DNA from: Niabella beijingensis
GTDB lineage: Bacteria; Bacteroidota; Bacteroidia; Chitinophagales; Chitinophagaceae
Direction of reading: 5' to 3'
Assembly (NCBI RefSeq): GCF_020034665.1
Contig: NZ_JAIQDI010000002.1
Coordinates: forward strand, 1,302,001-1,366,000
DNA length: 64,000 bases
The notes beneath the pieces are model-generated. The model saw nothing but the letters and a program-made list of their open reading frames with translations, searched no databases and was not told the origin of the DNA. Positions 3,764 to 16,101 of the stretch are shown one piece after another (positions within the stretch are counted from its first letter, which is position 1; every line of letters starts with the position of its first letter). The position numbers were made by a program, and so were the translations under genes.

Positions 3764-3834
3764 GGTCTCGTGGCCGAGTGGCTAGGCAGAGCTCTGCAAA
3801 AGCTCGTACAGCGGTTCGAATCCGCTCGAGACCT
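3764..3834 (+). tRNA. tRNA-Cys (anticodon GCA)
   Basis: A complete cloverleaf can be folded by eye. The acceptor stem GGTCTCG (3764-3770) pairs with CGAGACC (3827-3833). The anticodon stem GAGCT/AGCTC (3789-3793 / 3801-3805) encloses loop CTGCAAA with anticodon GCA. The T stem AGCGG/CCGCT encloses TTCGAAT. The variable loop is four bases, and the discriminator is T at 3834. The CCA end is not encoded. A terminator follows directly. The Cys identity is notable because a Cys-rich leader ORF starts 278 bases downstream. Confidence 0.97.
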
Positions 3835-3839
3835 CTCTT

Positions 3840-3877: not shown

Positions 3878-4060
3878 CATTCCGGCAATAACCCCGAATC
3901 AGCCCTGGGTTTAATAGGTTTACAAAAGCTTATGTGCTATCCCACTTTGCATATGTGTTATTCCACCTGCTGCTGCCTTAAAAAATATTGAGCCGGGAGG
4001 TGCGGCAACACTTATTTTGTGGGCAGCTTTTCCCATATATTTTTACAAGAATAAAATATA

Positions 4061-4081
4061 AGTCTATAAATTTGGTAGACT
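4061..4081 (+). promoter_or_regulatory. Promoter -7 box inside a perfect palindrome, upstream of the Cys leader and susC operon
   Basis: TAAATTTG (4067-4074) is an exact TAnnTTTG -7 box. It is flanked by AGTCTA (4061-4066) and TAGACT (4076-4081), which are perfect inverted repeats separated by nine bases. A regulator bound to the arms would cover the -7 box and start site, so this is a candidate operator. No good TTG is present near -33 (the region reads TTTTTAC), as expected for a regulated promoter. The predicted start near 4081 lies about 30 bases before the leader ATG. The identity of the regulator is unknown. Confidence 0.6.
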
Positions 4082-4111
4082 AAAAAAATACTGTTAATCT
4101 TGCAGATTATT

Positions 4112-4210
4112 ATGAACTCCTCAACATTCAGTAATAGGATTAATCAAAAACCATCGGTGTTAAACATGGGCGGCCTATTTGCTTTTTTTGTCTGTTGTTG
4201 CAGCTGTTAG
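4112..4210 (+). CDS. Cysteine-rich leader peptide (candidate attenuator)
   Basis: An ATG-to-TAG ORF of 32 codons. The first two thirds are polar, rich in Ser, Asn and Arg. The end is a short hydrophobic stretch (GGLFAFF) followed by VCCCSC and the stop, with Cys codons TGT TGT TGC, then Ser, then TGT. Four Cys in the last five codons, in an otherwise Cys-free peptide placed 208 bases upstream of a TonB transporter/sulfatase operon, is the hallmark of a ribosome-stalling leader that senses charged tRNA-Cys. Cys-rich leader peptides are known before sulfur genes in other phyla. The role here is inferred from composition, place and operon content. It has no Shine-Dalgarno, as usual for the phylum. 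Confidence 0.6.
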   Translation: MNSSTFSNRINQKPSVLNMGGLFAFFVCCCSC

Positions 4211-4216
4211 CCTGAT

Positions 4217-4255
4217 GCCTTTTTTAAGGCGATTTCCTTTTTAACCATTTTTTTT
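4217..4255 (+). promoter_or_regulatory. Candidate attenuator hairpin with T-rich tail
   Basis: Six bases after the leader stop, GCCTT (4217-4221) pairs with AAGGC (4226-4230) around a TTTT loop. It is followed by a pyrimidine-rich tract with runs of five T (4238-4242) and eight T (4248-4255). The placement fits a ribosome-controlled terminator. The T runs are 8 and 18 bases from the stem rather than adjacent, so termination strength is doubtful, and no convincing antiterminator was found by eye. Confidence 0.4.
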
Positions 4256-4305
4256 ACTTAACCGATCTTTTCGCGATGGACGACTCGTAGAAATATCACA
4301 AAAAT

Positions 4306-4383
4306 GCCGGGCCTGTTGGCGCAGATACCCGGCTGCATCATAAAGTGTTTCCCTGTTAAAAGATCCCGTATGCCATTGCATAC
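4306..4383 (+). other. Two further hairpins in the susC leader
   Basis: GCCGGG (4306-4311) pairs with CCCGGC (4328-4333). The loop contains an alternative stem GCC/GGC (4311-4320) that shares a base with it, so the two are mutually exclusive. A second hairpin, GTATGC/GCATAC (4368-4373 / 4378-4383), has a CATT loop and ends 34 bases before the susC ATG. They fill the 207-base gap between leader stop and susC, which has no other visible gene. A regulatory role is inferred only. Confidence 0.4.
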
Positions 4384-4417
4384 AGGCCACCTTATTGTTT
4401 AATGCAAATCAAATGTA

Positions 4418-7400
4418 ATGAAAAAAAAGTTCATCGTTTTTTTATTGCTTACCATCTTGTTTACACCACTGCTGAAAAATGCGTATTCACAGGAACCGCA
4501 TGCTGTTATCAATACCCAATTCAAAGGCTATGTATACGACTCGGCATCAAAGCTGCCTCTTGATGGTGCCACCGTGCTGATAAAAGGTACCACCAACCAG
4601 TCGCGGGCGGATGAAAAAGGCCATTTTAATTTAAGAACAGGGCAGAAGCTGCCTTTTACCATCATTGTATCTTTTGTGGGATACGAAACACGGGAAGTGT
4701 ATGTTACCGATGCCGTTGTTTCGGTTCCGTTGGAACGGCGGAAGAACGACCTCGGAGAAGTTGTGGTAGTTGGCTACGGCACTCAGAAACGAAGCAGCAT
4801 TACAGGAGCTGTGGCCTCCGTATCAAAAACCAGCCTGTCGCAACCTGCCGTAGCATTTGATAACCTGCTCCAGGGCGCCGTCTCCGGGGTGGCCGTTACC
4901 CAATCCTCCGGACAGCCCGGCAGCACCGCTACTATAAGAATCCGCGGCGGAAACTCTATCAATTTCGGAAATGATCCGTTGTATGTGATCGACGGGTTTA
5001 TTGTGTACAATAATAACAGTCTTACCAATACCGGTGCTTCCAGCGGAAGCGGTGTTAATGCACTTTCTACCATCAATCCTTCCGATATAGAATCAATTGA
5101 TATTTTAAAGGATGCAGCAGCCACAGCCATCTATGGCTCTAGGGGAGCGAACGGGGTCGTGATCATTACCACCAAGAAAGGACGAAAGGGTAGGACCGAA
5201 CTGAATTACAGCGGTTATTTCGGTCAGCAGGAAGCTGCCAAAACACACCGGTTGCTGAACGGCGGGCAATGGGCATCACTGATCAATGATATCAATAAAA
5301 GTGATAACCAGCCTGCAACATTTACGCAGGAGCAGATAAATGCATTCGGTGCCGGCGATAACTGGCAGGAGGCCGCACTCCGTCGCGCCGCAACCCAGAA
5401 TCATGAATTATCCATATCCGGGGGGGATGAAAAATCCCGTTTCCTGATCTCCGGAAATTATTTCGATCAGGATGGCGTGATCCGAAACACCGGCTTCCGC
5501 CGCTACTCCGGCCGTATCAACTATGAGCGGGAACTGAACAGTAAATTTACAGTAGCAGCAAATGTATACCTCAGCCGGGCAGGTCAGGACAAGCTTTCCG
5601 GTGCCAACTTTGGCGGTACCGGATTTAACGGGGCGTTTCCAACACTGATTCTTACTCCACCTGTGGTGAAAATAAAGAACGGCGACGGCAGTTATAACAC
5701 GCAGAACCCTTATATCGCTACTCCAACAAATCCGCTCTGGGATATTACGGCCACAGAAAATGGAACGCAGATCAACCGCAGTCTCGCCAACGCTTATGTT
5801 GAATACAGGATCATTGACGGACTGGTACTAAAATCTTCTTTTGGCATCGACCAGCTGACCACCAAGCAGAATTATTATGCTCCGTCCTATACGGCAGCGG
5901 GTTATGCAGCTGGTGGTGTTGCCGCTGTAGGCAATATACAGGGCAGTTCCTGGTTGAACGAGAATACATTAACCTACTCGAAAATCATTCGGGATCGGCA
6001 TGCATTGAATGTACTGCTGGGATATACAACCCAGTACTCAGAAGATGAAAGCACCGTGGCGGGTGCGCAGAAATTTGCTTCAGACCTTACAGAATACAAT
6101 AACCTGTCACTGGGTGGAACAGCAGTGCTGCCTTCATCAGACGCGCATGCGTCGGCTCTTAATTCGTTCCTGGGAAGGATCAATTATACATTTGATGAGA
6201 AATATTCTGTTTCGCTTACACAACGTGCAGATGGCTCGTCCCGGTTAGGAAGGAATAATAAATGGGGCTTTTTCCCTTCGGTGGGTATTTCCTGGAATGC
6301 GGTCAGGGAACGGTTCCTGGAACAGAGTGACGTGATCTCTAATCTTAAGATCAGAGCGTCTTACGGACAAACAGGAAATTCGGAAGTGCCGCCTTACAGC
6401 TCGCTGTCGGTGCTGGCTGCCAGTAATTATTTTTTTAACGGGGCGCTGGTTACCGGTGTGGCGCCATCGCAGCTTGCAAATGCAAACCTGAAATGGGAAA
6501 CCACCACCCAGTGGAACGCGGGTATTGATGCGGGCTTTTTTAAGAACCGGATCAGTATTACGGCCGATGTGTACGGAAAGAAGACCAGTGATCTGCTGCT
6601 GTTTGTGCCCTTTCCATTATATACGGGTTACAACACGGTCTTAAAAAATGCCGGAAGCGTTTCCAACAGCGGTGTCGAGTTCTCATTCAATACAGAGAAT
6701 ATACGGGGACGACGATTTAACTGGAAGTCTTCACTGGTATTTGCTACAAACAGGAATAAAGTACTGAACCTGGGAGATGGGGTGGACTACTATTATCCCG
6801 TAGCACCTACAGGGTTTGTGTCGCCGGTGATCGTAAAAGTAGGATTGCCGGTATCCACCTTCTGGGGATATAAGACGGATGGACTGCTGACCGCAGCGGA
6901 TCTTGCAGCCAATACACCAAAACTGGCCGGTGTATCACAGCAGGAAGGCGACCGGAAATATGTGGACACGAACCATGATGGTGTTATTACCACAGCGGAT
7001 AAAGTAAACCTGGGAAATGCACAGCCGAAATTCAGCTTTGGTATAACCAACAACTTTACCGCCTACGGGTTTGATCTCTCTGTTTTCCTTCAGGGTACTT
7101 ATGGCAATAAGGTATTTAATTTTATCCGCCAAAAACTGGAGCTTCCCACCTTATCATTGAACGCGTCGGCCTCGCTGCTCGATCGCTGGAGCCCCGAACA
7201 TCCGGAAGGAAAAGAGCCCAGGGCTACGAATTCACCGGTACCGCAAGTTATTGATCGTTATATAGAGGATGCCTCTTTTCTGCGGGTAAAGAACATCACA
7301 CTGGGCTATACACTTCCCGCAAACCTGCTTGCCCGGTACAAAATAACAAAACTACGGTTGTATATCACCGGTCAGAATCTTATCACAATTACCCCTTACA

Positions 7401-7516
7401 GCGGTCTTGATCCGGAAGCCAATCTTTACGATGTGGATAATACCAAACAGGGGATCGACTATGGGATCTATCCTTCAACGAAAACGATCCTTGTCGGACT
7501 GAACATTACCATTTAA
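4418..7516 (+). CDS. SusC/RagA family TonB-dependent outer-membrane transporter
   Basis: A 1032-residue importer of the SusC class, which moves ligands captured by its SusD partner across the outer membrane using TonB energy. It starts with a signal peptide (about residues 1-24). A carboxypeptidase-regulatory-like beta domain follows (about 31-110, with SFVGYE). The plug domain has the family segments VVVVGYGTQKR, IRIRGGNSI, PLYVIDGF and ILKDAAATAIYGSRGANGV. The rest is the beta barrel, ending in LVGLNITI. It begins a five-gene operon with susD, an arylsulfatase, a small membrane protein and a sterol-desaturase-like enzyme. The cargo is therefore probably a sulfate ester rather than a glycan for carbon supply (inference). 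Expression probably depends on the upstream palindrome and Cys leader. Confidence 0.96.
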   Translation: MKKKFIVFLLLTILFTPLLKNAYSQEPHAVINTQFKGYVYDSASKLPLDGATVLIKGTTNQSRADEKGHFNLRTGQKLPFTIIVSFVGYETREVYVTDAVVSVPLERRKNDLGEVVVVGYGTQKRSSITGAVASVSKTSLSQPAVAFDNLLQGAVSGVAVTQSSGQPGSTATIRIRGGNSINFGNDPLYVIDGFIVYNNNSLTNTGASSGSGVNALSTINPSDIESIDILKDAAATAIYGSRGANGVVIITTKKGRKGRTELNYSGYFGQQEAAKTHRLLNGGQWASLINDINKSDNQPATFTQEQINAFGAGDNWQEAALRRAATQNHELSISGGDEKSRFLISGNYFDQDGVIRNTGFRRYSGRINYERELNSKFTVAANVYLSRAGQDKLSGANFGGTGFNGAFPTLILTPPVVKIKNGDGSYNTQNPYIATPTNPLWDITATENGTQINRSLANAYVEYRIIDGLVLKSSFGIDQLTTKQNYYAPSYTAAGYAAGGVAAVGNIQGSSWLNENTLTYSKIIRDRHALNVLLGYTTQYSEDESTVAGAQKFASDLTEYNNLSLGGTAVLPSSDAHASALNSFLGRINYTFDEKYSVSLTQRADGSSRLGRNNKWGFFPSVGISWNAVRERFLEQSDVISNLKIRASYGQTGNSEVPPYSSLSVLAASNYFFNGALVTGVAPSQLANANLKWETTTQWNAGIDAGFFKNRISITADVYGKKTSDLLLFVPFPLYTGYNTVLKNAGSVSNSGVEFSFNTENIRGRRFNWKSSLVFATNRNKVLNLGDGVDYYYPVAPTGFVSPVIVKVGLPVSTFWGYKTDGLLTAADLAANTPKLAGVSQQEGDRKYVDTNHDGVITTADKVNLGNAQPKFSFGITNNFTAYGFDLSVFLQGTYGNKVFNFIRQKLELPTLSLNASASLLDRWSPEHPEGKEPRATNSPVPQVIDRYIEDASFLRVKNITLGYTLPANLLARYKITKLRLYITGQNLITITPYSGLDPEANLYDVDNTKQGIDYGIYPSTKTILVGLNITI

Positions 7517-7537
7517 TCATTCAAACAACGATCTATT

Positions 7538-9070
7538 ATGAGCAGTATAATGAAATTCATCCCCCTGTCTGTTAGCTTCATTTTTGCGGTAACTATTACA
7601 GGATGCAATAAGCTAAAGGAACTCCCTGAGTCGGTGATCACGGAAGACCAGTATTATAAGACTGCTTCTGACGCGGTGAGCGCGGTCAATGCGGTCTATG
7701 GCAGTCTCAATGGCGATCCGGCGGGGGACTTTCCAATCTATGGCCGCAACCTGAATATCCTGATCAGCAATGGCTCCGATGAACAGGTATTCAGCCCTTC
7801 CAATACCAATCCGGATGTACGGGCCATTGGCACGATCACCTATGTTGCCGAGAACGACCGGGTACGGAAAATATGGCAGCAGCATTATTATGGAATCAAC
7901 AAGGCGAACATAGCCATCGATAAGATACCGGGCATTGAAATGGATGAAACCCAGAAGAACCGGCTTGTGAATGAGGCCCGTTTTATAAGAGCGCTCCTGT
8001 ATTTTAACCTGGTGCGTTTATTTGGAGGAGTACCCCTCGTGCTTCACAATCCTTCTTCGATTGACATAGAGGCGGTAAAACTGAAAAGAGCGACTGCCGA
8101 AGAAATATATGTCCAGGTCATTGATGATCTGACCGCTGCCACCGCATTACCTGCTTCTTTTTCCGGTGCCGATAAAGGCCGCGCCACATCCGGCGCTGCG
8201 CTTGGTATGCTGGCCAAAGTGTATGTTACCAGGAAAGACTGGGCAACGGCGCGGACAATACTTGAAAAAATACTGACAGCAGGAACGTTTACCGGTGCAA
8301 CAGGTACCTACGGGTATGATCTGTTCCCCGTTTTTAAGGATGTGTTTCAGAAACCTACCAAAAACGGAAAAGAACACCTGTTTTCCGTACAATATGAATC
8401 GAACCTGGGAGCAAGGAACGTGCAGAATTTCCTGAGCGGCTCCAATTTCAATTCCTTTAATCCCAAATCTTTTCCCGGCGATGTACCGGATGAGAACCTG
8501 CCGAAAATCTTTGAAGAGGCAGACACCCGGAAAGCTGCCTCTTTCTTTACAAAGATGCTGAACCCTGCCACCGGGCAGGAAGTGGATTTTTCTCCGGTAA
8601 CACGTTATGCAAAGTTCATTGATTTTAGTCTGAACCCGATCACCAACCAGGCGCAGAGTGGCATCAACTATCCGGTATTGCGTTACGCGGATGTACTGCT
8701 GCTGTATGCGGAAGTACGGAACGAATTACAGGGCCCTTCGGCAGAAGCCTACAAGGCGCTGAACATTGTAAGAGCACGTGCTTATGGTTTGTATGTGGGT
8801 AATGGCAGTTATACCGATCACCGCCGGGATCTTTCAGGTCTGAGCCAGGCAGGCTTCCGGGAGGCCGTTTTTCTGGAGCGGCGGAAAGAACTGGTGCAGG
8901 AGGCTAACCGCTGGTTCGATCTGGTACGTAAAGGCACGCTGGTGGAAGAACTGAAAAAAATCCCTGCCAAAACGAGCAATGTATCTGAAAAAAATTACCT
9001 GTTCCCGATACCGCAGGTGGAACTTGATCTCAATAACCTGCTTACACAAAACCCGGGATGGAGCAGGTAA
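7538..9070 (+). CDS. SusD/RagB family outer-membrane lipoprotein
   Basis: Surface lipoprotein lid of the SusC transporter. The signal ends in an ITGC lipobox with Cys23 as the lipidated residue (counting from the first ATG). An in-frame ATG at 7550 gives a tidier signal beginning MKFIPLS and may be the true start. The body has the SusD features of an N-terminal TPR-like part with RALLYFNLVRLFGGVPLV and a C-terminal region with LRYADVLLLYAEVRNE, FLERRKELVQEANRWFDLVRKG and the closing PIPQVELDLN segment. At 510 residues it is normal length. It begins 21 bases after the susC stop, so it shares the transcript. Confidence 0.96.
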   Translation: MSSIMKFIPLSVSFIFAVTITGCNKLKELPESVITEDQYYKTASDAVSAVNAVYGSLNGDPAGDFPIYGRNLNILISNGSDEQVFSPSNTNPDVRAIGTITYVAENDRVRKIWQQHYYGINKANIAIDKIPGIEMDETQKNRLVNEARFIRALLYFNLVRLFGGVPLVLHNPSSIDIEAVKLKRATAEEIYVQVIDDLTAATALPASFSGADKGRATSGAALGMLAKVYVTRKDWATARTILEKILTAGTFTGATGTYGYDLFPVFKDVFQKPTKNGKEHLFSVQYESNLGARNVQNFLSGSNFNSFNPKSFPGDVPDENLPKIFEEADTRKAASFFTKMLNPATGQEVDFSPVTRYAKFIDFSLNPITNQAQSGINYPVLRYADVLLLYAEVRNELQGPSAEAYKALNIVRARAYGLYVGNGSYTDHRRDLSGLSQAGFREAVFLERRKELVQEANRWFDLVRKGTLVEELKKIPAKTSNVSEKNYLFPIPQVELDLNNLLTQNPGWSR

Positions 9071-9112
9071 TCCCGGAATTTCCAACAATAAACCGTTTTA
9101 AAAAATGAAATT

Positions 9113-10981
9113 ATGAAAATCAGAATTATTGCAGCGCTTGCATTACTGCTCCTGGCCGGTAGCCGGGCAACGGCTCAGCAAAAAGAGCCTTTTCGGGGTA
9201 AAATAGGCAAAACACTGGCTACATCCGAAGAATGGTGGCCGCAACCGGTGACGCCGCCCTCCAACGCACCGAATGTGGTATGGGTGCTGCTGGATGATGT
9301 GGGATACGGAGCCTCCAGCAGTTTTGGAGGACTGATCCAAACGCCGACATTCGACTCGCTGGCCAATAACGGATTGCGGTATACCAATTTTCATACTGCT
9401 GCCATCTGCGCACCAACAAGGTCTGCATTGTTAACCGGCCGTAATTCTCACTACGTGGGCGTAGGCGGATTTTCACATGTGGCGATGTCTGCCGGATTTC
9501 CCGGCTGGAACGGCCGTATCCCTGAAGATAAAGGAACCATTGCCCAGATCCTTCAATCATACGGATATAACACATTTGCCGTAGGGAAGTACGGACTGAC
9601 GCCGGATGAGGAAGCCACGGACGCGGGTCCTTTCGACCGGTGGCCCGGGGGGAAAGGCTTTGAGCAGTTCTTCGGATTCCTGGGATCGCAGACCGATCAG
9701 TATGATCCCGATCTCGTGGAAAATAATGCACATGTTAAAACAGATGGCCGGCATCTGAATGACCAGATAACGGATAAAGCCATTTCCTATATACAGAAGC
9801 AACAGCAGGCGGCGCCCGGTAAACCGTTCTTCCTCTATTATTCGCCCGGTGCAGTGCACGCCCCGCACCAGGTTGCACCGGAATTCACGAACAGGTATAA
9901 GGGGCTCTTTGATGAGGGGTGGGATAAGTACCGGGAAAAAGTACTGGCGAACCAGATCCGGTTGGGAGTAGTGCCAAAGAATGCAAAATTGCCGGACCGC
10001 AACGCGGATATCCCTGCCTGGGATCAGCTGCCCGCCGAAAAGAAAAAATTATATGCCCGCTTTATGGAAGCTTATGCGGGCTATCTTACTTATACGGATT
10101 ATTGTGTGGGCCGGCTGATCCGTTATCTGAAAGAAGCAGACCTGCTGGAAAACACGGTTGTTGTTGTGATGATCGGAGATAATGGAGCCAGCAAAGAAGG
10201 AACTTTCCAGGGCACCTTGCAGCCCCGGAACCAGATCGGCAAACAAACGGAAGAAGAGCAGCTCCGGTACAACCTCTCCCGTATCGATGATATCGGACTT
10301 CCCCAGGGGAAGAATACGAACTATCCGCTCGGCTGGGCGCAGGCCACCAACACACCATTCCGCCAATGGAAGCAGGATGCTAATGCAGAGGGGGGCACAC
10401 ATAATCCGCTGATCATTTTTTATCCCAGGGAAATAAAAGAAAAAGGCGGCATTCGCACACAATACAGTCATGTGATTGATATACTGCCTACAACACTTGA
10501 TCTTGTGGGTGTAAAAGCACCGGCCTCCATACGGAATATTCCGCAGGACAGCATCCAGGGTTATTCCTTATTTAAAACACTGAACAACGCAGCAGCTGTT
10601 GCGGATCACCGGGTGCAGCATTATTATATTTTTGGCGCGCGATCGGTTTATGCCGATGGCTGGAAAGCCGCCACAGCACATCATCCAGACGCAATCGATT
10701 ATGTAAAAACACGCACCACAGGCTGGAAGGGTGACCCCGGCCGGTGGGATAAGGATGAATGGGAATTGTATAACCTGAATGAAGATTTTAACGAAAGAGA
10801 AAACCTTGCAAAGAAATATCCCGAAAAACTGGAAGCCCTGAAAAAGCTGTTTGATCAGCAGGCCGAGAAAAATAACCTGTACCCACTCATCGACTGGGAA
10901 GATGTGTATGAAAAAAGGATCCATAAAAATTATAAACCTGCCGTATATGGTACGCCAGTACCACCGGCAGCGGGAAAATAA
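9113..10981 (+). CDS. Arylsulfatase (Cys-type, AtsA-like)
   Basis: A 622-residue secreted sulfatase that hydrolyses sulfate esters. The signal peptide ends near residue 21 (ATA-Q). The metal-binding pair is Asp61-Asp62 in LLDDVGYG. The modification motif is C99-A-P-T-R103, followed by SALLTGR, so Cys99 should become formylglycine. GKYGLTP, APHQ and MIGDNGA contain further metal and sulfate ligands. The pattern and length resemble Pseudomonas-type AtsA arylsulfatases, a sulfur-starvation class, more than glycan exo-sulfatases. The third gene of the susC operon, it supports sulfur scavenging from an imported or surface-bound organosulfate. No formylglycine-generating enzyme is encoded in the window, so maturation must come from elsewhere. 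Confidence 0.93.
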   Translation: MKIRIIAALALLLLAGSRATAQQKEPFRGKIGKTLATSEEWWPQPVTPPSNAPNVVWVLLDDVGYGASSSFGGLIQTPTFDSLANNGLRYTNFHTAAICAPTRSALLTGRNSHYVGVGGFSHVAMSAGFPGWNGRIPEDKGTIAQILQSYGYNTFAVGKYGLTPDEEATDAGPFDRWPGGKGFEQFFGFLGSQTDQYDPDLVENNAHVKTDGRHLNDQITDKAISYIQKQQQAAPGKPFFLYYSPGAVHAPHQVAPEFTNRYKGLFDEGWDKYREKVLANQIRLGVVPKNAKLPDRNADIPAWDQLPAEKKKLYARFMEAYAGYLTYTDYCVGRLIRYLKEADLLENTVVVVMIGDNGASKEGTFQGTLQPRNQIGKQTEEEQLRYNLSRIDDIGLPQGKNTNYPLGWAQATNTPFRQWKQDANAEGGTHNPLIIFYPREIKEKGGIRTQYSHVIDILPTTLDLVGVKAPASIRNIPQDSIQGYSLFKTLNNAAAVADHRVQHYYIFGARSVYADGWKAATAHHPDAIDYVKTRTTGWKGDPGRWDKDEWELYNLNEDFNERENLAKKYPEKLEALKKLFDQQAEKNNLYPLIDWEDVYEKRIHKNYKPAVYGTPVPPAAGK

Positions 10982-10993
10982 AATCTGCCGGCT

Positions 10994-11110
10994 ATGAATG
11001 ACCTGATCACACTCACAAAAAAAATAATCATCAGTATCGGTATTGTTATCGTGCCACTGGCTTTTATAGCCGGTGGCCTTTACCTGCTGCAATTATTGCT
11101 CACGCATTAA
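10994..11110 (+). CDS. Small single-span membrane protein (38 aa)
   Basis: An ATG ORF of 38 codons fills the gap between the sulfatase stop (10981) and the next ATG (11121). It encodes a short polar start (NDLITLTKK), then about 24 hydrophobic residues rich in Ile, Val, Leu and Gly, and ends LLLTH. It looks like a one-pass inner-membrane peptide. The tight spacing (12 bases before, 10 after) supports it being a real operon member. I do not recognise a family. It could be a helper subunit of the membrane hydroxylase encoded next, but that is a guess. Confidence 0.55.
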   Translation: MNDLITLTKKIIISIGIVIVPLAFIAGGLYLLQLLLTH

Positions 11111-11120
11111 ACTATCGTAT

Positions 11121-12158
11121 ATGAACTATAAAATTGAAAATCCCCGGAAGTTAACAAGAGACCTTCTTGTAAGTCTGGGGTTGTACCTCCTGCCCGTTGT
11201 GCTGATGTTCGGCTATTTTTATATAGTGAATGAAAAACCCTGGCAAAATACCATTGCTGAAAATCTGCATATCGCGCGGGAAAATATACCGTCCTGGTTG
11301 CAGTCGTCTTTTACCCATCTTCGCAAATGGGGACTCATTGTCCTGGCAATTGCGGTGGGTTTTATTGAAGTAATCGCGGGGCTTTATGAGAACCGCCGAT
11401 GGACACGCAATGAAAAGATACTGGACCTCGTATGTTTTGTGGCACCTAAGTTGCTGTTTGTTCCCGTGCTCACCTTTTTCAGCCTTAGGCTGTTACCGGT
11501 ATTGCTGCCATCGGCAAAGGATGCCTTTATATGGGTGCCGTTCTGGTGGGGGGCGCTGATCATTGCTGTGGCGGATGACCTTACCCAGTACTGGTATCAC
11601 CGGCTGCATCATCAGGTGCCGTTCCTGTGGAGGTTTCACCGCACGCACCATTCAGCTCCCTATATGGGCATGTCCATGGCCAGCCGGCAGAATATTATCT
11701 ATACGATCTTCTTCTCACAGATCTATCTTATTGCTATACTTACTTACCTGGGGCTGGGGTTGCCCGCATTATTTGTAGGTGGTATAAAATCGCTGATCAC
11801 ACTTTCGGCACACAGCAGCATCAAATGGGATAAACCTTTTTATACCAACCGGTGGCTGCATCCGGCGGGTTGGGTACTGGAACGGCTGATTTCCACTCCG
11901 GCTACCCATCACGCCCACCACGCAGATACTACGGATGACGGAATAGGGCATTATAAAGGCAATTTTGGAAATATGTTCTTTATCTGGGATATGATCTTTG
12001 GTACCGGCATCATTACCCGGAAATATCCGGAGACCTATGGCGTAAAATCGTACCGGGAGGAGGAATGGTATGCGCAGTTCCTCTGGCCGGTATTTAAATC
12101 AAAAAAACAGGGAAGCGAATTGTCCAGGGGAGGACCTGTTGTTGCTGATGAATCCTAG
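11121..12158 (+). CDS. Sterol desaturase / fatty acid hydroxylase superfamily protein
   Basis: An integral-membrane di-iron oxygenase family member of 345 residues. The metal-binding His clusters are all visible: HRLHH and HRTHH in the middle, then THHAHH followed by the GHYKGNFG segment. Several hydrophobic helices precede and separate them. The frame is open upstream to 11073 with a Cys-rich start, but that part overlaps the 38-codon gene. The ATG at 11121, ten bases after that stop, is the better start. As the last gene of the operon it may hydroxylate a lipid or oxidise the organosulfate-derived alcohol. The substrate is unknown. Confidence 0.88.
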   Translation: MNYKIENPRKLTRDLLVSLGLYLLPVVLMFGYFYIVNEKPWQNTIAENLHIARENIPSWLQSSFTHLRKWGLIVLAIAVGFIEVIAGLYENRRWTRNEKILDLVCFVAPKLLFVPVLTFFSLRLLPVLLPSAKDAFIWVPFWWGALIIAVADDLTQYWYHRLHHQVPFLWRFHRTHHSAPYMGMSMASRQNIIYTIFFSQIYLIAILTYLGLGLPALFVGGIKSLITLSAHSSIKWDKPFYTNRWLHPAGWVLERLISTPATHHAHHADTTDDGIGHYKGNFGNMFFIWDMIFGTGIITRKYPETYGVKSYREEEWYAQFLWPVFKSKKQGSELSRGGPVVADES

Positions 12159-12240: not shown

Positions 12241-15200
12241 CTAAAAACTTACCGTATTCAGCCGCTTATCCACCAGGATGCCGTCAGCAAGTTTGAGATC
12301 AACATCGAGGTTGCGTTTGGCTTTTAGTTTTATGATGAAAAGATCCTGTGTACCTTCCAGCGCAGGTTGGTCGCCAATGTTTACAAAAGTTGGATACAAC
12401 ACTTTTTTACCATTGCTGTGGAGCCGGTCATTGGTCATGTTTTCCAGCTCTTTCATATTTAACGGGCTGATGCCTGCAAACTCATAGTCCTGCGTATTAT
12501 AAGGCAGGGCAAAACTCAATGCATTTACGGCTTTCAGGTTGATGCCTTTGACGGTGATTTCGATCACCTCATCTTTTTTATAAGCTTTCTTTGCCGTTAC
12601 GACTTCAATCCGGCCCTGTAATGTATCGGCGTTGCTCAGGTCGGCACCACCTTCAAGACGGGTGGCTACATTGGAAATGTCGTAGGCATCGATCAATCCG
12701 TTCCTGTTGATATCGCCATTGCTGATATACCCTTCAAAATCGCCGTCGCCGGTCCTTAGCCCGGTATAGTTGATATAGGAGGTAAGGTCGTTGTTGTCGA
12801 TGATATGGTCGTTATTGATATCGCCGGGAATATAACTTTCTGAGCCAGGCACTTTAAACACATACAGCTCACGTCCGGATCCGAAATCACCTACAGCTTC
12901 AGTAACAGAGATTTTTATATAACGGGCTGTGGGATGGTTGGGGAAACCGAATGTTTTGGTATCACCGTTCTTTGCCCATTCAAAATTACCCGCCTCTGTC
13001 CAGCCGGATTTGCTGGTACTATAAGCCACACTTCCTTTCAGCAGCACGCCGTTGCCACGGGTGCGGGGCAGGTACTGGATCTTATCCAGCTGGTTTACGG
13101 ATCGCAGATCCAGCACGAGGTCGAACGGCACTGCTTTTGTACCCCATTTGGTATGCCAGAGATTGCTCTCATCAAAATCAACCAGCTGGGCAACCTCACT
13201 GCCTTCCTGATCAGGAGCAGATGCTGTTGCGATCATATCCTTAATAGCAAATTCCAGCGGATTTACTTTTGTTGTTGCCGTAAGGGTCGCCCAGGGAGAC
13301 TGTCCGTCTTTGTTCACAGACCGGAGTTTGAACCGGTAACCGGTCTCCGGAGTCAGCCCGTCAAACAGTAAACTGGTATCTTTTATCGTTGTATAAAGCT
13401 GCCCGTTGAATTCGATCTCATAAAAGTCGGCATTGCGTTGTTTGTTCCAGCTGGGTGTTAAGGTATAGGCCTGGCGGTTGCTGTCGGCGACCTGTGGCTG
13501 TGGCGGTGCTGTCAGCCTGCCCGTTTGTTGGTGCAGGTGATCATCCGGAGCAAAGAAAAATCCATTGACAGTGAGGGTGATGGTATGGGTGGTGATATCG
13601 GTTGCAGCCAGTTTTACCAGCAACTGCGGATTTTTGATAATAGCCGTCCGGGCAAACGGGCTGCCGGCTGTAGCGAAGCGGTTCAGATTGGGAGCTGCAT
13701 TATAATAATAAACGTTTACCTGTTTCCGGAAGTCTTCAAGCGATGAGGCGGCTTTCAGTTTCAGGTTTGTGGCACCTGTTTTCGCAGTAATGCCTGCGGG
13801 TTTCCGGGTTACATTGATCCGGAATTCTGTGGACTTATTTTTCACAAAACCATCATAGCTGCCTTTGGTGGGTTGTATGGTGATCGTTGCGGTATTTTTT
13901 TGAACAGCCGACCGGATCAGTGTAGTGGCGCCGGTGCCTGATTTGTAGGCTTCTGTTACACCATCGTCATCATATTCGGTAAAGGAACTGTTGCCCGCGG
14001 GATAAAGTTCATAGATACGGCTGGTCTTATCGATCTGTGTACTATTATTGTTGGGATGGGTCATGGGAATGATGGCACCGGCTTTTACAAATACGGGAAG
14101 TTTCCAGAGGGGGGCTTCAAAATTGTTCACCACCCGGCCACCCTCATAAACGTCACCGGAAAAATAATCGATCCAGGTACCGGAAGGCAGGTAAATATTA
14201 TTGCGGATATCGTTTCCTTTTTCATCGGCTTTTGTTTCCTGGTAAATGGGAGCCACCAGGAACCAGGGGCCATATAAATACTGGTATTGTGTGGCCTTGC
14301 CATAAGTGAAAGCGTTGGGATATTCCAGGAACAGAGCCCGGATCATGGGGAGTCCGTTCACGGCCTGTTTGGCGATGCTGTAGGTATAAGGTAGCAATTC
14401 TGATTTCAGTTTGAGATAGGTCCGGTTGATGGATGTTACCGGTTCGCCCAGTGCATAGGGATATTTTTCATTGGCACCCCAGCCGTCCATATTGAGCTGC
14501 ATCGGTGTGAATGTTTTCCACTGAAAATCGCGGGTATTTACTTTGGTGTTTTTGCCGCCGAAGATCCCATCCATGTCTGAAGTGATATTGGGCTGCCCCG
14601 AAAGTCCTGATCCGAGGTAGGTAGGAATGTGGAAGCGGATGTACTCCCATACACCGCCCGTTTGATCCCCGCTCCAGATGCCGGCATAGCGCTGCGTTCC
14701 GGCCCATCCGTCCAGGGAAATAATAAAGGGGCGTGCATTATTTCCATATTTTGGTATGATATGACCCACATCCGACACGCCATTCAGACCAAAAGAGTAC
14801 CCGGGTCCAACCCAGGCAACATCGGTCTTTAATACCCGCACACCGGCCACGCCTACTTCTTTGATAATATCCCGCTGCAGTAGGGCGGGGATACTGTCTT
14901 TGGGATGCAGATCGGATTGGGTCCAGAGGCCGATCTGTACGCCGTTGCTGCGGGCATAGTCGCCAAAGGCCTTCAGGTTCTGTATATTGCTGTCCAGGGT
15001 GCCGGTTTGCCCATACCCCGCGCCGTATCCGTCATTGGGAAGGATCCAGCCCAGGGGCAGGTCATGTGCCTTATAGCGGTCGATCACTGCTCTTGCAGAA
15101 AGCTGGTAATTGTTCTTTTCCCCGTTCAGTGATTCTTTGATACCCCCATTGTCTTTCTGACTTTCCTTATAGCGTTTGCCATCTTCGAAAAGTACACCCA

Positions 15201-16101
15201 CTGTATCCGCTTTCCAGTAGTCGCGGTTATAGGCATTCAGGTGCCCTTCATAAAAACCGAATTTGGGCAGCAGCACCGGGTTGCCGGTCAACTGGTAAAA
15301 ATCGTTCAGCAATGCCACCGGCTGTTTATCGATCATAAAGAATACATCCAGGTAATTGGTTTCATGAGAAAGGGTTACTGTGCCTTTTTCCCTGGCTCCA
15401 AAATCGTATTTCCCTTTTTTAAAGGTGTACCACATAAACCCGTATCCGTTTGTAGACCAGTAAAAGGGGGTAGGGGAGGCAACGCCGCCATCCGTCCAGC
15501 TGTTCTGGTTTTCTATAGCAATGATCTTTCCTTTATGAGAGAAGCGGCCGTTCTGCACACCGCCTCCGTAAAAATATTCAGATGGATCTTCTTTCAGCTT
15601 CAGGCTGGTGCCTTTCTTTTCGAACAATGCAGGACTAAGGGTTTGTACGGCTACCTGTCCGCTTTTGTTATTGATGATCTTCAGGCGTGCTGTTGTTTTG
15701 CTGAATTCAATAGTTACAGCAGCTGTAGCAATTACAAGTTGATTGCTGTTGCTTGTTATGTTCAGCTTTGAAACCGTTTTACGTGGGTTGTCTGTAAGAA
15801 TGGATGCCGGTGGGGTAGCTTCCGGTGCCCGAAGCGATCCGCCCGAAGGATCTGCAAACAGGCGAAAGATATTGTCCCCATAAAAATCAAGTAATAACTC
15901 CAGGCGGTTGCTGAACCGGATCTTTACCGTTGTGGGGTTCACCTTTTCTGCACCGGTTATGGTGAGTGTATCAGCGGCTGGTTTTATCAGTGCCGGCTGT
16001 GAAGGGGTTACCTGCGCGGTACCCGTGATGATCGTTGCTGTGGCAAGCAGTGTAGTGATGATTCCTTTTCTGAAGAATGCAATTCCAGACTCCCGGTTCA
16101 T
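12241..16101 (-). CDS. Multimodular GH31 glycoside hydrolase with Fn3, F5/8C, dockerin-like and cohesin-like modules
   Basis: A 1286-residue secreted enzyme with a signal peptide over about residues 1-30. An N-terminal beta-sandwich (to about 230) precedes the GH31 barrel (about 250-600). The expected nucleophile is the Asp in LKTDVAWVGPGY and the acid/base Asp is in WSGDQTGG. Beta domains follow to about 860, then a fibronectin type III module (PSWNKQRNADFYEIEF...GLTPETGYRF), a discoidin/F5/8C module (about 960-1100), two EF-hand-like dockerin repeats (GDINNDHIIDNNDL and GDINRNGLIDAYDI) and a C-terminal cohesin-like beta domain. The architecture and the ILPNDGYG and VAWVGPGYSF segments suggest alpha-galactosidase or alpha-N-acetylgalactosaminidase types (GH31_18-like) rather than a plain alpha-glucosidase. 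Specificity is inferred. Confidence 0.9.
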   Translation of the reverse strand: MNRESGIAFFRKGIITTLLATATIITGTAQVTPSQPALIKPAADTLTITGAEKVNPTTVKIRFSNRLELLLDFYGDNIFRLFADPSGGSLRAPEATPPASILTDNPRKTVSKLNITSNSNQLVIATAAVTIEFSKTTARLKIINNKSGQVAVQTLSPALFEKKGTSLKLKEDPSEYFYGGGVQNGRFSHKGKIIAIENQNSWTDGGVASPTPFYWSTNGYGFMWYTFKKGKYDFGAREKGTVTLSHETNYLDVFFMIDKQPVALLNDFYQLTGNPVLLPKFGFYEGHLNAYNRDYWKADTVGVLFEDGKRYKESQKDNGGIKESLNGEKNNYQLSARAVIDRYKAHDLPLGWILPNDGYGAGYGQTGTLDSNIQNLKAFGDYARSNGVQIGLWTQSDLHPKDSIPALLQRDIIKEVGVAGVRVLKTDVAWVGPGYSFGLNGVSDVGHIIPKYGNNARPFIISLDGWAGTQRYAGIWSGDQTGGVWEYIRFHIPTYLGSGLSGQPNITSDMDGIFGGKNTKVNTRDFQWKTFTPMQLNMDGWGANEKYPYALGEPVTSINRTYLKLKSELLPYTYSIAKQAVNGLPMIRALFLEYPNAFTYGKATQYQYLYGPWFLVAPIYQETKADEKGNDIRNNIYLPSGTWIDYFSGDVYEGGRVVNNFEAPLWKLPVFVKAGAIIPMTHPNNNSTQIDKTSRIYELYPAGNSSFTEYDDDGVTEAYKSGTGATTLIRSAVQKNTATITIQPTKGSYDGFVKNKSTEFRINVTRKPAGITAKTGATNLKLKAASSLEDFRKQVNVYYYNAAPNLNRFATAGSPFARTAIIKNPQLLVKLAATDITTHTITLTVNGFFFAPDDHLHQQTGRLTAPPQPQVADSNRQAYTLTPSWNKQRNADFYEIEFNGQLYTTIKDTSLLFDGLTPETGYRFKLRSVNKDGQSPWATLTATTKVNPLEFAIKDMIATASAPDQEGSEVAQLVDFDESNLWHTKWGTKAVPFDLVLDLRSVNQLDKIQYLPRTRGNGVLLKGSVAYSTSKSGWTEAGNFEWAKNGDTKTFGFPNHPTARYIKISVTEAVGDFGSGRELYVFKVPGSESYIPGDINNDHIIDNNDLTSYINYTGLRTGDGDFEGYISNGDINRNGLIDAYDISNVATRLEGGADLSNADTLQGRIEVVTAKKAYKKDEVIEITVKGINLKAVNALSFALPYNTQDYEFAGISPLNMKELENMTNDRLHSNGKKVLYPTFVNIGDQPALEGTQDLFIIKLKAKRNLDVDLKLADGILVDKRLNTVSF

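Follow-up and report, generated by a model that had tools for sequence, protein, structure and literature searches.

A putative sulfur-scavenging operon and the short cysteine-codon leader in front of it were analyzed in a stretch of 64,000 nucleotides (nt) from Niabella beijingensis, a member of the Chitinophagaceae (contig NZ_JAIQDI010000002.1, positions 1,302,001 to 1,366,000; G000:C2:1302001-1366000 of the 6.59 Mb genome); this whole stretch is called the window, and L numbers denote individual loci. The leader open reading frame (ORF), MNSSTFSNRINQKPSVLNMGGLFAFFVCCCSC followed by a stop, occupies 4112-4210 on the plus strand and has 32 codons ending in VCCCSC, while an alternative TTG start at 4100 would give 36 amino acids (aa). 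Its putative regulatory codons, Cys-Cys-Cys-Ser-Cys at 4193-4207 on the same strand, abut the stop, as judged from the sequence and a comparison within Niabella. After 207 nt the operon genes follow, all on the plus strand: a SusC/RagA TonB-linked outer membrane protein (4418-7516, 1032 aa; TIGR04056, 858 bits), a SusD lipoprotein (7538-9070, 510 aa; PF07980 and PF14322), a Cys-type sulfatase (9113-10981, 622 aa; PF00884, motif C99APTR), a hydrophobic peptide of 38 residues (10994-11110), and an enzyme of the FA_hydroxylase/sterol-desaturase family (11121-12158, 345 aa; PF04116, His boxes HRLHH, HRTHH, and HHAHH). The leader and this gene content had been reported in an initial annotation made from the letters alone; the former was borne out by the sequence, and family models agreed with the latter, the 38-residue peptide being the member that matched no family.

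The sulfatase combines the PF00884 domain with the C-x-P-x-R motif of Cys-type (S1) enzymes, and its top-scoring solved structures are the arylsulfatases 7ALL, 4CXS, and 1HDH (E ~1e-58). The AtsA-type arylsulfatase of Pseudomonas is a sulfur-starvation enzyme; the window sulfatase is like it in being of the Cys type and in having these arylsulfatase structures among its best matches, but differs in being encoded together with SusCD. The nearest named relatives at the SusC locus, two Niabella loci with 90-91% SusC identity (L065 and L066), have kept the 38-residue peptide, a similar one is present in Puia (L070), and a script search of L069 and L125 found none. The SusC-SusD-sulfatase-hydroxylase operon as such is kept in nine relatives (L065, L066, L069, L070, L071, L075, L100, L110, and L125), with a different gene order in two, and all nine carry leaders.

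Upstream of the leader, the inverted repeat AGTCTA-N9-TAGACT (4061-4081, without strand) forms a putative operator over the promoter, and the same motif stands 5′ of sulfur-type genes. It encloses a -7 box, TAAATTTG (4067-4074, plus strand), which was assigned by eye and fits TAnnTTTG, the Bacteroidota -7 consensus; ~30 nt separate the end of the palindrome from the leader ATG. The initial annotation had called the palindrome perfect. Its 6-base arms and the enclosure of the -7 box agree with that description, but across all 21 bases complementarity extends to 8 of 10 opposing positions, so the word is valid for the arms only. Behind the leader stop, the plus strand encodes a small hairpin, GCCUU-UUUU-AAGGC (4217-4230; 5 base pairs, -6.5 kcal/mol), and then a U-rich stretch, which is terminator-like but weak and has similar counterparts in L065 and L066 (-4.9 and -5.2 kcal/mol). 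Of the hairpins and T runs noted earlier, this hairpin and its tail were found, but the leader region (4085-4420) folded no better than its shuffled versions (z -0.65; 22 of 100 shuffles equally good), so this part of the earlier description is weak.

The conservation of the leader was evaluated on 80 SusC relatives from one scan of named genome contigs, of which two were dropped for their short upstream sequence, leaving 78 that have 500 nt or more 5′ of SusC; a leader was scored as an ORF with at least three Cys in its last eight residues, no more than 700 nt 5′ of SusC. Of the near SusC loci 14 of 17 had a Cys-ending leader, compared with 4 of 61 among the far ones (Fisher 1.7e-9), the boundary of ~44% identity having been chosen after the leader ends had been inspected. 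Dinucleotide shuffling of the 17 near upstream regions in 200 rounds gave a mean of 0.2 loci and a maximum of 2, and in a comparison of all 20 amino acids Cys reached 14 near loci and the runner-up, Lys, reached 4. Re-inspection of the near misses raised the count to 16 of 17: the leader of L130 sits farther upstream, a CCCCC leader in L076 precedes a hydroxylase gene that comes before SusC, and L068 has no leader near its SusC. The near relatives with leaders include genomes of Niabella and of the Sphingobacteriaceae (Pedobacter and Mucilaginibacter), and two of the four far hits, L093 and L103, also have the palindrome. A chance ORF with a Cys-rich end would be favored by the abundance of such codon runs, as TGYTGYTGYNNNTGY, a motif of the TGYTGYTGY type, has 133 matches in the genome vs. 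14 for its reversed control, and TGYTGYTGY occurs 20 times in the window vs. 3.5 expected; the motif alone is therefore no evidence. Chance was nevertheless ruled out by the shuffles (0.2 vs. 14 of 17 loci) and the amino-acid comparison, and its probability is negligible. Consistent with the frequency of the motif, a search of the genome with TGYTGYTGYTRA gave 100 matches, of which 30 were examined and one lay outside longer ORFs, without a recognized sulfur gene downstream; two of the other 70, which were left unexamined in that search, are leaders found by other routes.

Selection on the leader looks to act on its cysteine codons and not on the peptide, since the Cys codons are kept in Niabella while the N-terminal codons are free to change. 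In pairwise comparisons of the window, L065, and L066, codons 1-27 showed 12, 11, and 4 amino-acid-changing differences, while codons 28-33 showed none and 2, 1, and 1 silent changes. The conservation of the leader and of its Cys codons that the initial annotation had asked for was thus found at both levels. From genus to genus the N-terminal parts appear unrelated, and the ends vary as well (CCC, CCCSC, CCCCMCC, CCCCC, CCCGC, YSCCC, CCTCCCC, CCASTCICC, and CICCMCC), with both Cys codons in use (TGT 157 and TGC 69 in 48 leader ends). In having a short upstream ORF with a run of Cys codons that are kept while the remaining peptide varies, the leader agrees with cysteine-class attenuators. Cys clusters can bind metals, and the peptide might accordingly be the product itself, a metal or thiol binder and not a sensor; however, the absence of fixed spacing or length in the cluster, together with the variable N-terminal parts just described, makes this very unlikely. 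Farther 5′ than the palindrome, at 3932-3991 of the window, lies a second short Cys-rich ORF, MCYPTLHMCYSTCCCLKKY; the leader script detected no counterpart in L065, where just 715 nt lie 5′ of SusC, or in L066.

Further, Cys leaders were found in front of core sulfur genes. The N. beijingensis genome has three S-adenosylmethionine (SAM) riboswitches, of which one precedes a metB-like gene without a leader, one is followed by a leader ending ...VMCCCICCMP and then metY (TIGR01326), and the third lies between a palindrome and a CCCC-ending leader 5′ of SusC-SusD-thioredoxin genes; a Cys-run leader also precedes PhyH-SDR genes. Among 59 SAM riboswitch loci in 60 Chitinophagaceae genomes, the leader was present at 9 of 13 metY vs. 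0 of 29 metB-like loci (Fisher 1.6e-6), with 91-100 nt from stop to gene in all nine. It was also present at one of two susC-type loci, and the 15 other or unassigned loci gave one clear leader, 5′ of cysH in L258; the script hits in L213 and L221, to which no gene had been assigned, were discarded as coding or chance sequence. By eye, four metY leaders start directly 3′ of a palindrome-like site (L206, L231, L240, and L250). A survey of the class over 119 genomes gave 19 metY loci of at least 70% identity, and 11 less similar loci were fetched as well; the script found a Cys-ending ORF at 14 of the 19, compared with a mean of 0.38 and a maximum of 3 in shuffles, and in the amino-acid comparison Cys reached 14, Leu 8, and Lys 6. 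Scoring over the last ten residues added L281 and L282 from among the 11 less similar loci, whose Cys-Met-rich ORFs with terminators were taken as real, and the script-found metY leaders cover eleven families counting these two and ten without them. L263 and L276, missed by the script, have a tandem pair of Cys-rich short ORFs 5′ of metY. By family models, metY and cysH belong to the pathway that a cysteine attenuator should control, and the window operon may be assigned to the sulfur pathway from its operator and its sulfatase.

The metY leaders of L201, L204, L206, L229, L231, L233, L240, L245, and L250 end in a small hairpin, weak in L206, which in most encloses the stop within its short loop, for example GUAUGCC-GUAA-GGCAUAC or CUAG loops; the loop is without a stop in L229 (GCAA) and L204 (UUUC).

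The operator was then compared across genomes. With at most one mismatch, the palindrome occurs at four places in the N. beijingensis genome vs. ~0.15 expected (an estimate for uniform base composition): in the window, 5′ of a PhyH dioxygenase and an SDR gene, between SusC and sulfatase genes that diverge, and 5′ of an ORF of 92 aa with another FA_hydroxylase. Sites with two or three mismatches lie 5′ of a TauE sulfite-exporter-type gene, the SusC-SusD-thioredoxin operon, and a TonB receptor, the others of this grade having mostly not been followed up or having no sulfur gene. A looser search of the cys island gave copies 5′ of prx-cysH-cysD-cysN and 5′ of cobA-cysJ-cysI, where, except for cysH and cysD, the genes were named from domain matches and gene order. 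In 147 Chitinophagaceae genomes the strict palindrome gave 19 sites in 14 genomes and its reversed control none; Cys leaders stand behind six of these sites, before PhyH genes (L152, L155, and L160), TonB-plug receptors (L153 and L158), and the window's SusC (L169).

PhyH dioxygenases were observed behind palindrome and Cys leader in N. beijingensis (L149, 8040-9811, followed by the SDR gene), L152, and L155, and are possibly organosulfur-releasing enzymes. FA_hydroxylase-like genes likewise recur behind the palindrome, in N. beijingensis (L150, 8256-9755, with the 92-aa ORF, which matched no known family) and in L154 and L167, where the assignment was made by resemblance of reading only.

CymR is the Rrf2-family cysteine regulator of Firmicutes. 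PMC2869319 is a paper on this regulator. An Rrf2 gene of N. beijingensis (L146:12407-12814) encodes a protein that belongs, like CymR, to the Rrf2 family and has CymR among its nearer solved structures (2Y75 and 3T8R), although IscR-type and other Rrf2 structures score equally or better. In 8 of 24 genomes, an orthologue of at least 59% identity has prx, cysH, or cysD within ~1.5 kb, and in L312 the palindrome is located between the Rrf2 gene and cysH; the remaining 16, including that of N. beijingensis, have none of the three genes within this distance. A further difference from CymR is that in N. beijingensis ~10 kb separate the gene and the cys operon, and binding of its product to the palindrome is a prediction. 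The CymR-like Rrf2 protein is put forward as the best candidate for the operator-binding protein, and as a candidate only.

The step by which the leader would act on the operon was evaluated on 48 leaders hand-picked from those found, with the near-duplicates L074 and L089 omitted. Intrinsic terminators were not enriched behind them (4 of 48 vs. 4 of 59 controls, by a script whose minimum hairpin length missed L229 and whose list lacked L263 and L276), and for the window locus simple attenuation by a terminator is accordingly not established. In L263, L276, L281, and L282, by contrast, a strong terminator-type hairpin stands behind the leader, and in L229 a shorter one, from which some lineages at least seem to use intrinsic termination. 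In the RNA after the stop, C outnumbers G for 42 of 48 leaders vs. 32 of 59 control stretches (p 3e-7), a bias as expected of Rho loading but only suggestive, because the controls were taken 5′ of other SusC genes and were not matched for position. The last Cys lies 0-7 residues from the stop in the 48 leaders and directly before it (0) in 22, a distance biased by the search for Cys near the stop; Cys codons placed there fit a ribosome that would pause on them when Cys-tRNA is scarce. The same cysteine sensor may act through Rho or by holding back SusC translation and not through an intrinsic terminator. In the Rho version, termination at the leader stop would let Rho load on the C-rich, G-poor RNA behind it, as in tnaC, while a paused ribosome would mask this stretch. 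For such an output speak the C excess, the lack of a general terminator, and the suggestion of Rho made in PMC1262725 for the Cys-run leaders of Actinobacteria, which have their Cys codons close to the stop and lack terminators; against it stand the strong hairpins of the four loci, the shorter one of L229, and the weak terminator-like hairpin of the window itself. We consider it about evenly balanced; it is a sub-case of the cysteine-sensing reading and shares part of its confidence.

In L263 and L276, a strong terminator-type hairpin follows each of the tandem Cys-rich ORFs, and these units are possibly a double attenuator; the second ORF of L263 extends well past its last Cys. Another hairpin lies between leader and SusC in many relatives; its conserved 18-nt loop contains AACGCCAATCAC in part of them and roughly the reverse complement in the rest (L069, L093, L100 with one change, L103, L110, and L125; L068, L072-L074, L089, and L130). 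Rfam gave no family at gathering score in L093, L103, L110, and L125, and four weak matches below gathering scores (L093, L103, and L125) were taken as chance.

Sulfated-glycan loci usually combine SusCD with a sulfatase, and the window operon, with its SusC (TIGR04056), SusD (PF07980, PF14322), and sulfatase, has the SusC/SusD pair of a glycan utilization locus. It could thus be an ordinary sulfated-glycan locus under carbon-source regulation, the sulfur link being incidental, the more so as a GH31 gene adjoins at 12241-16101. This gene, however, lies on the other strand and is convergent with the operon, in which family models found no carbohydrate-active enzyme: beyond SusCD there are just the sulfatase and the FA_hydroxylase, and no glycoside hydrolase or lyase. 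The sulfur-type regulation likewise sets the operon apart from polysaccharide utilization loci, with operator copies 5′ of TauE-type and other sulfur-type genes, looser ones in the cys island, and a Cys leader in common with metY and cysH. The glycan reading is unlikely on this evidence, if less so than the peptide as product. The GH31 protein also shows F5/8, fn3, and dockerin-type matches.

We consider it very probable that the window locus is a sulfur-scavenging SusCD operon with a sulfur operator and a cysteine-sensing leader in series. As relatives carry the same leader before core sulfur genes, the operon is most likely switched on when cysteine runs short. At the first gate, an Rrf2/CymR-like repressor would bind the promoter palindrome while sulfur is plentiful. 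At the second, with Cys-tRNA charged, the ribosome would finish the leader fast, and the downstream message would be aborted or left untranslated; with cysteine short, it would pause on the Cys codons by the stop, and the operon would be expressed. Rho-dependent termination, intrinsic termination, and SusC translation are the candidate outputs. SusCD would then import a sulfate ester from which the sulfatase would free sulfate, and either the substrate itself or what remains after desulfation would be processed by the diiron-type hydroxylase; the arylsulfatase structure match and the hydroxylase prompt the guess of an aryl, alkyl, or steryl sulfate. Comparison among genomes shows that the leader is present, that its Cys codons are under selection, that it goes together with sulfur genes, and that the operator is shared, whereas the expression response, the ribosome pausing, and the repressor binding at the window are predicted from the sequence. 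The sulfur role proposed in the initial annotation gains independent support from the shared operator and from the Cys leaders before metY and cysH.

Several observations weigh against this reading. When three mismatches are allowed, the genome has fewer matches to the operator pattern than to the reversed control (40 vs. 83), so only close matches count, and the two cys-island sites came from a looser search in a region picked for its cys genes. No clear Cys leader lies near 13 of the 19 strict operator sites, and in G022, a genome of the same genus, a SusC operator is followed by an ORF that terminates in MMRRCPA and has two Cys in total (L161). The script found no leader at 4 of 13 metY loci in the family and 5 of 19 in the class; in the latter, Leu reaches 8 loci vs. 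14 for Cys, and of the 11 less similar loci three were positive, all of them doubtful (L283, L288, and L290). The stretches from riboswitch to gene are shorter at metB-like loci (240-387 nt) than at most metY loci, and the lack of leaders there is partly due to less room. To these are added the terminators, no commoner behind leaders than in controls, and the combination of SusCD and sulfatase, which looks equally like a sulfated-glycan locus.

A tRNA-Cys gene (anticodon GCA; 3764-3835, plus strand) lies ~275 nt 5′ of the leader ATG and is the only match of an Rfam scan of the window at gathering scores; as a neighbor, it is perhaps context only. A tRNA-Cys gene is also found 5′ of the Cys leader in Niabella BIN29 (L066, 6814-6886), and in genome G145 (L156) an exact palindrome stands 38 nt 5′ of one (1559-1630). 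These positions hint that the supply of cysteine tRNA may be part of this regulon too.

Cys-run leaders have been predicted in Actinobacteria 5′ of cys operons (Mycobacterium and Propionibacterium) and of Bifidobacterium cbs (PMC1262725), and the mycobacterial ones are reported to be cysteine-responsive (Canestrari et al., 2020, as cited in PMC9031893 and PMC13236596). The Bacteroidota leaders are like them in the short ORF, the Cys codons by the stop, the sulfur genes downstream, and the lack of a general terminator. They differ in belonging to another phylum, in that the window leader mRNA is probably not leaderless, given the ~30 nt from palindrome to ATG, in that the targets include SusCD transporters, and in being combined with an operator palindrome and in some places also with a SAM riboswitch. 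In Flavobacterium psychrophilum, leader-peptide attenuation is mentioned 5′ of amino-acid operons, and the part of PMC9723704 concerned does not name cysteine. A search of open-licence papers found no report of Cys leaders in Bacteroidota. The proposed device joins a cysteine attenuator to an operator, with a SAM riboswitch added in places, and sits on a SusCD system that most likely serves sulfur nutrition.

On balance, though with less assurance than for the window locus itself, we favor the view that Bacteroidota own a widespread and so far unreported cysteine-attenuation regulon, with metY leaders in at least 11 families, further targets in Chitinophagaceae (cysH, PhyH dioxygenases, and TonB/SusC receptors), and SusCD operons in Sphingobacteriaceae. 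Leaders and CymR-like operator, at some loci with a SAM riboswitch, would then form multi-input sulfur gates, in places as natural constructs in which one transcript unites a cysteine leader with a SAM riboswitch and a DNA operator, and amino-acid attenuation by cysteine would extend to a second large phylum. SusCD systems would also serve as importers for sulfur nutrition, and the Cys-run leader with the palindrome would be a signature by which such systems, commonly taken for glycan importers, could be recognized as serving sulfur nutrition.

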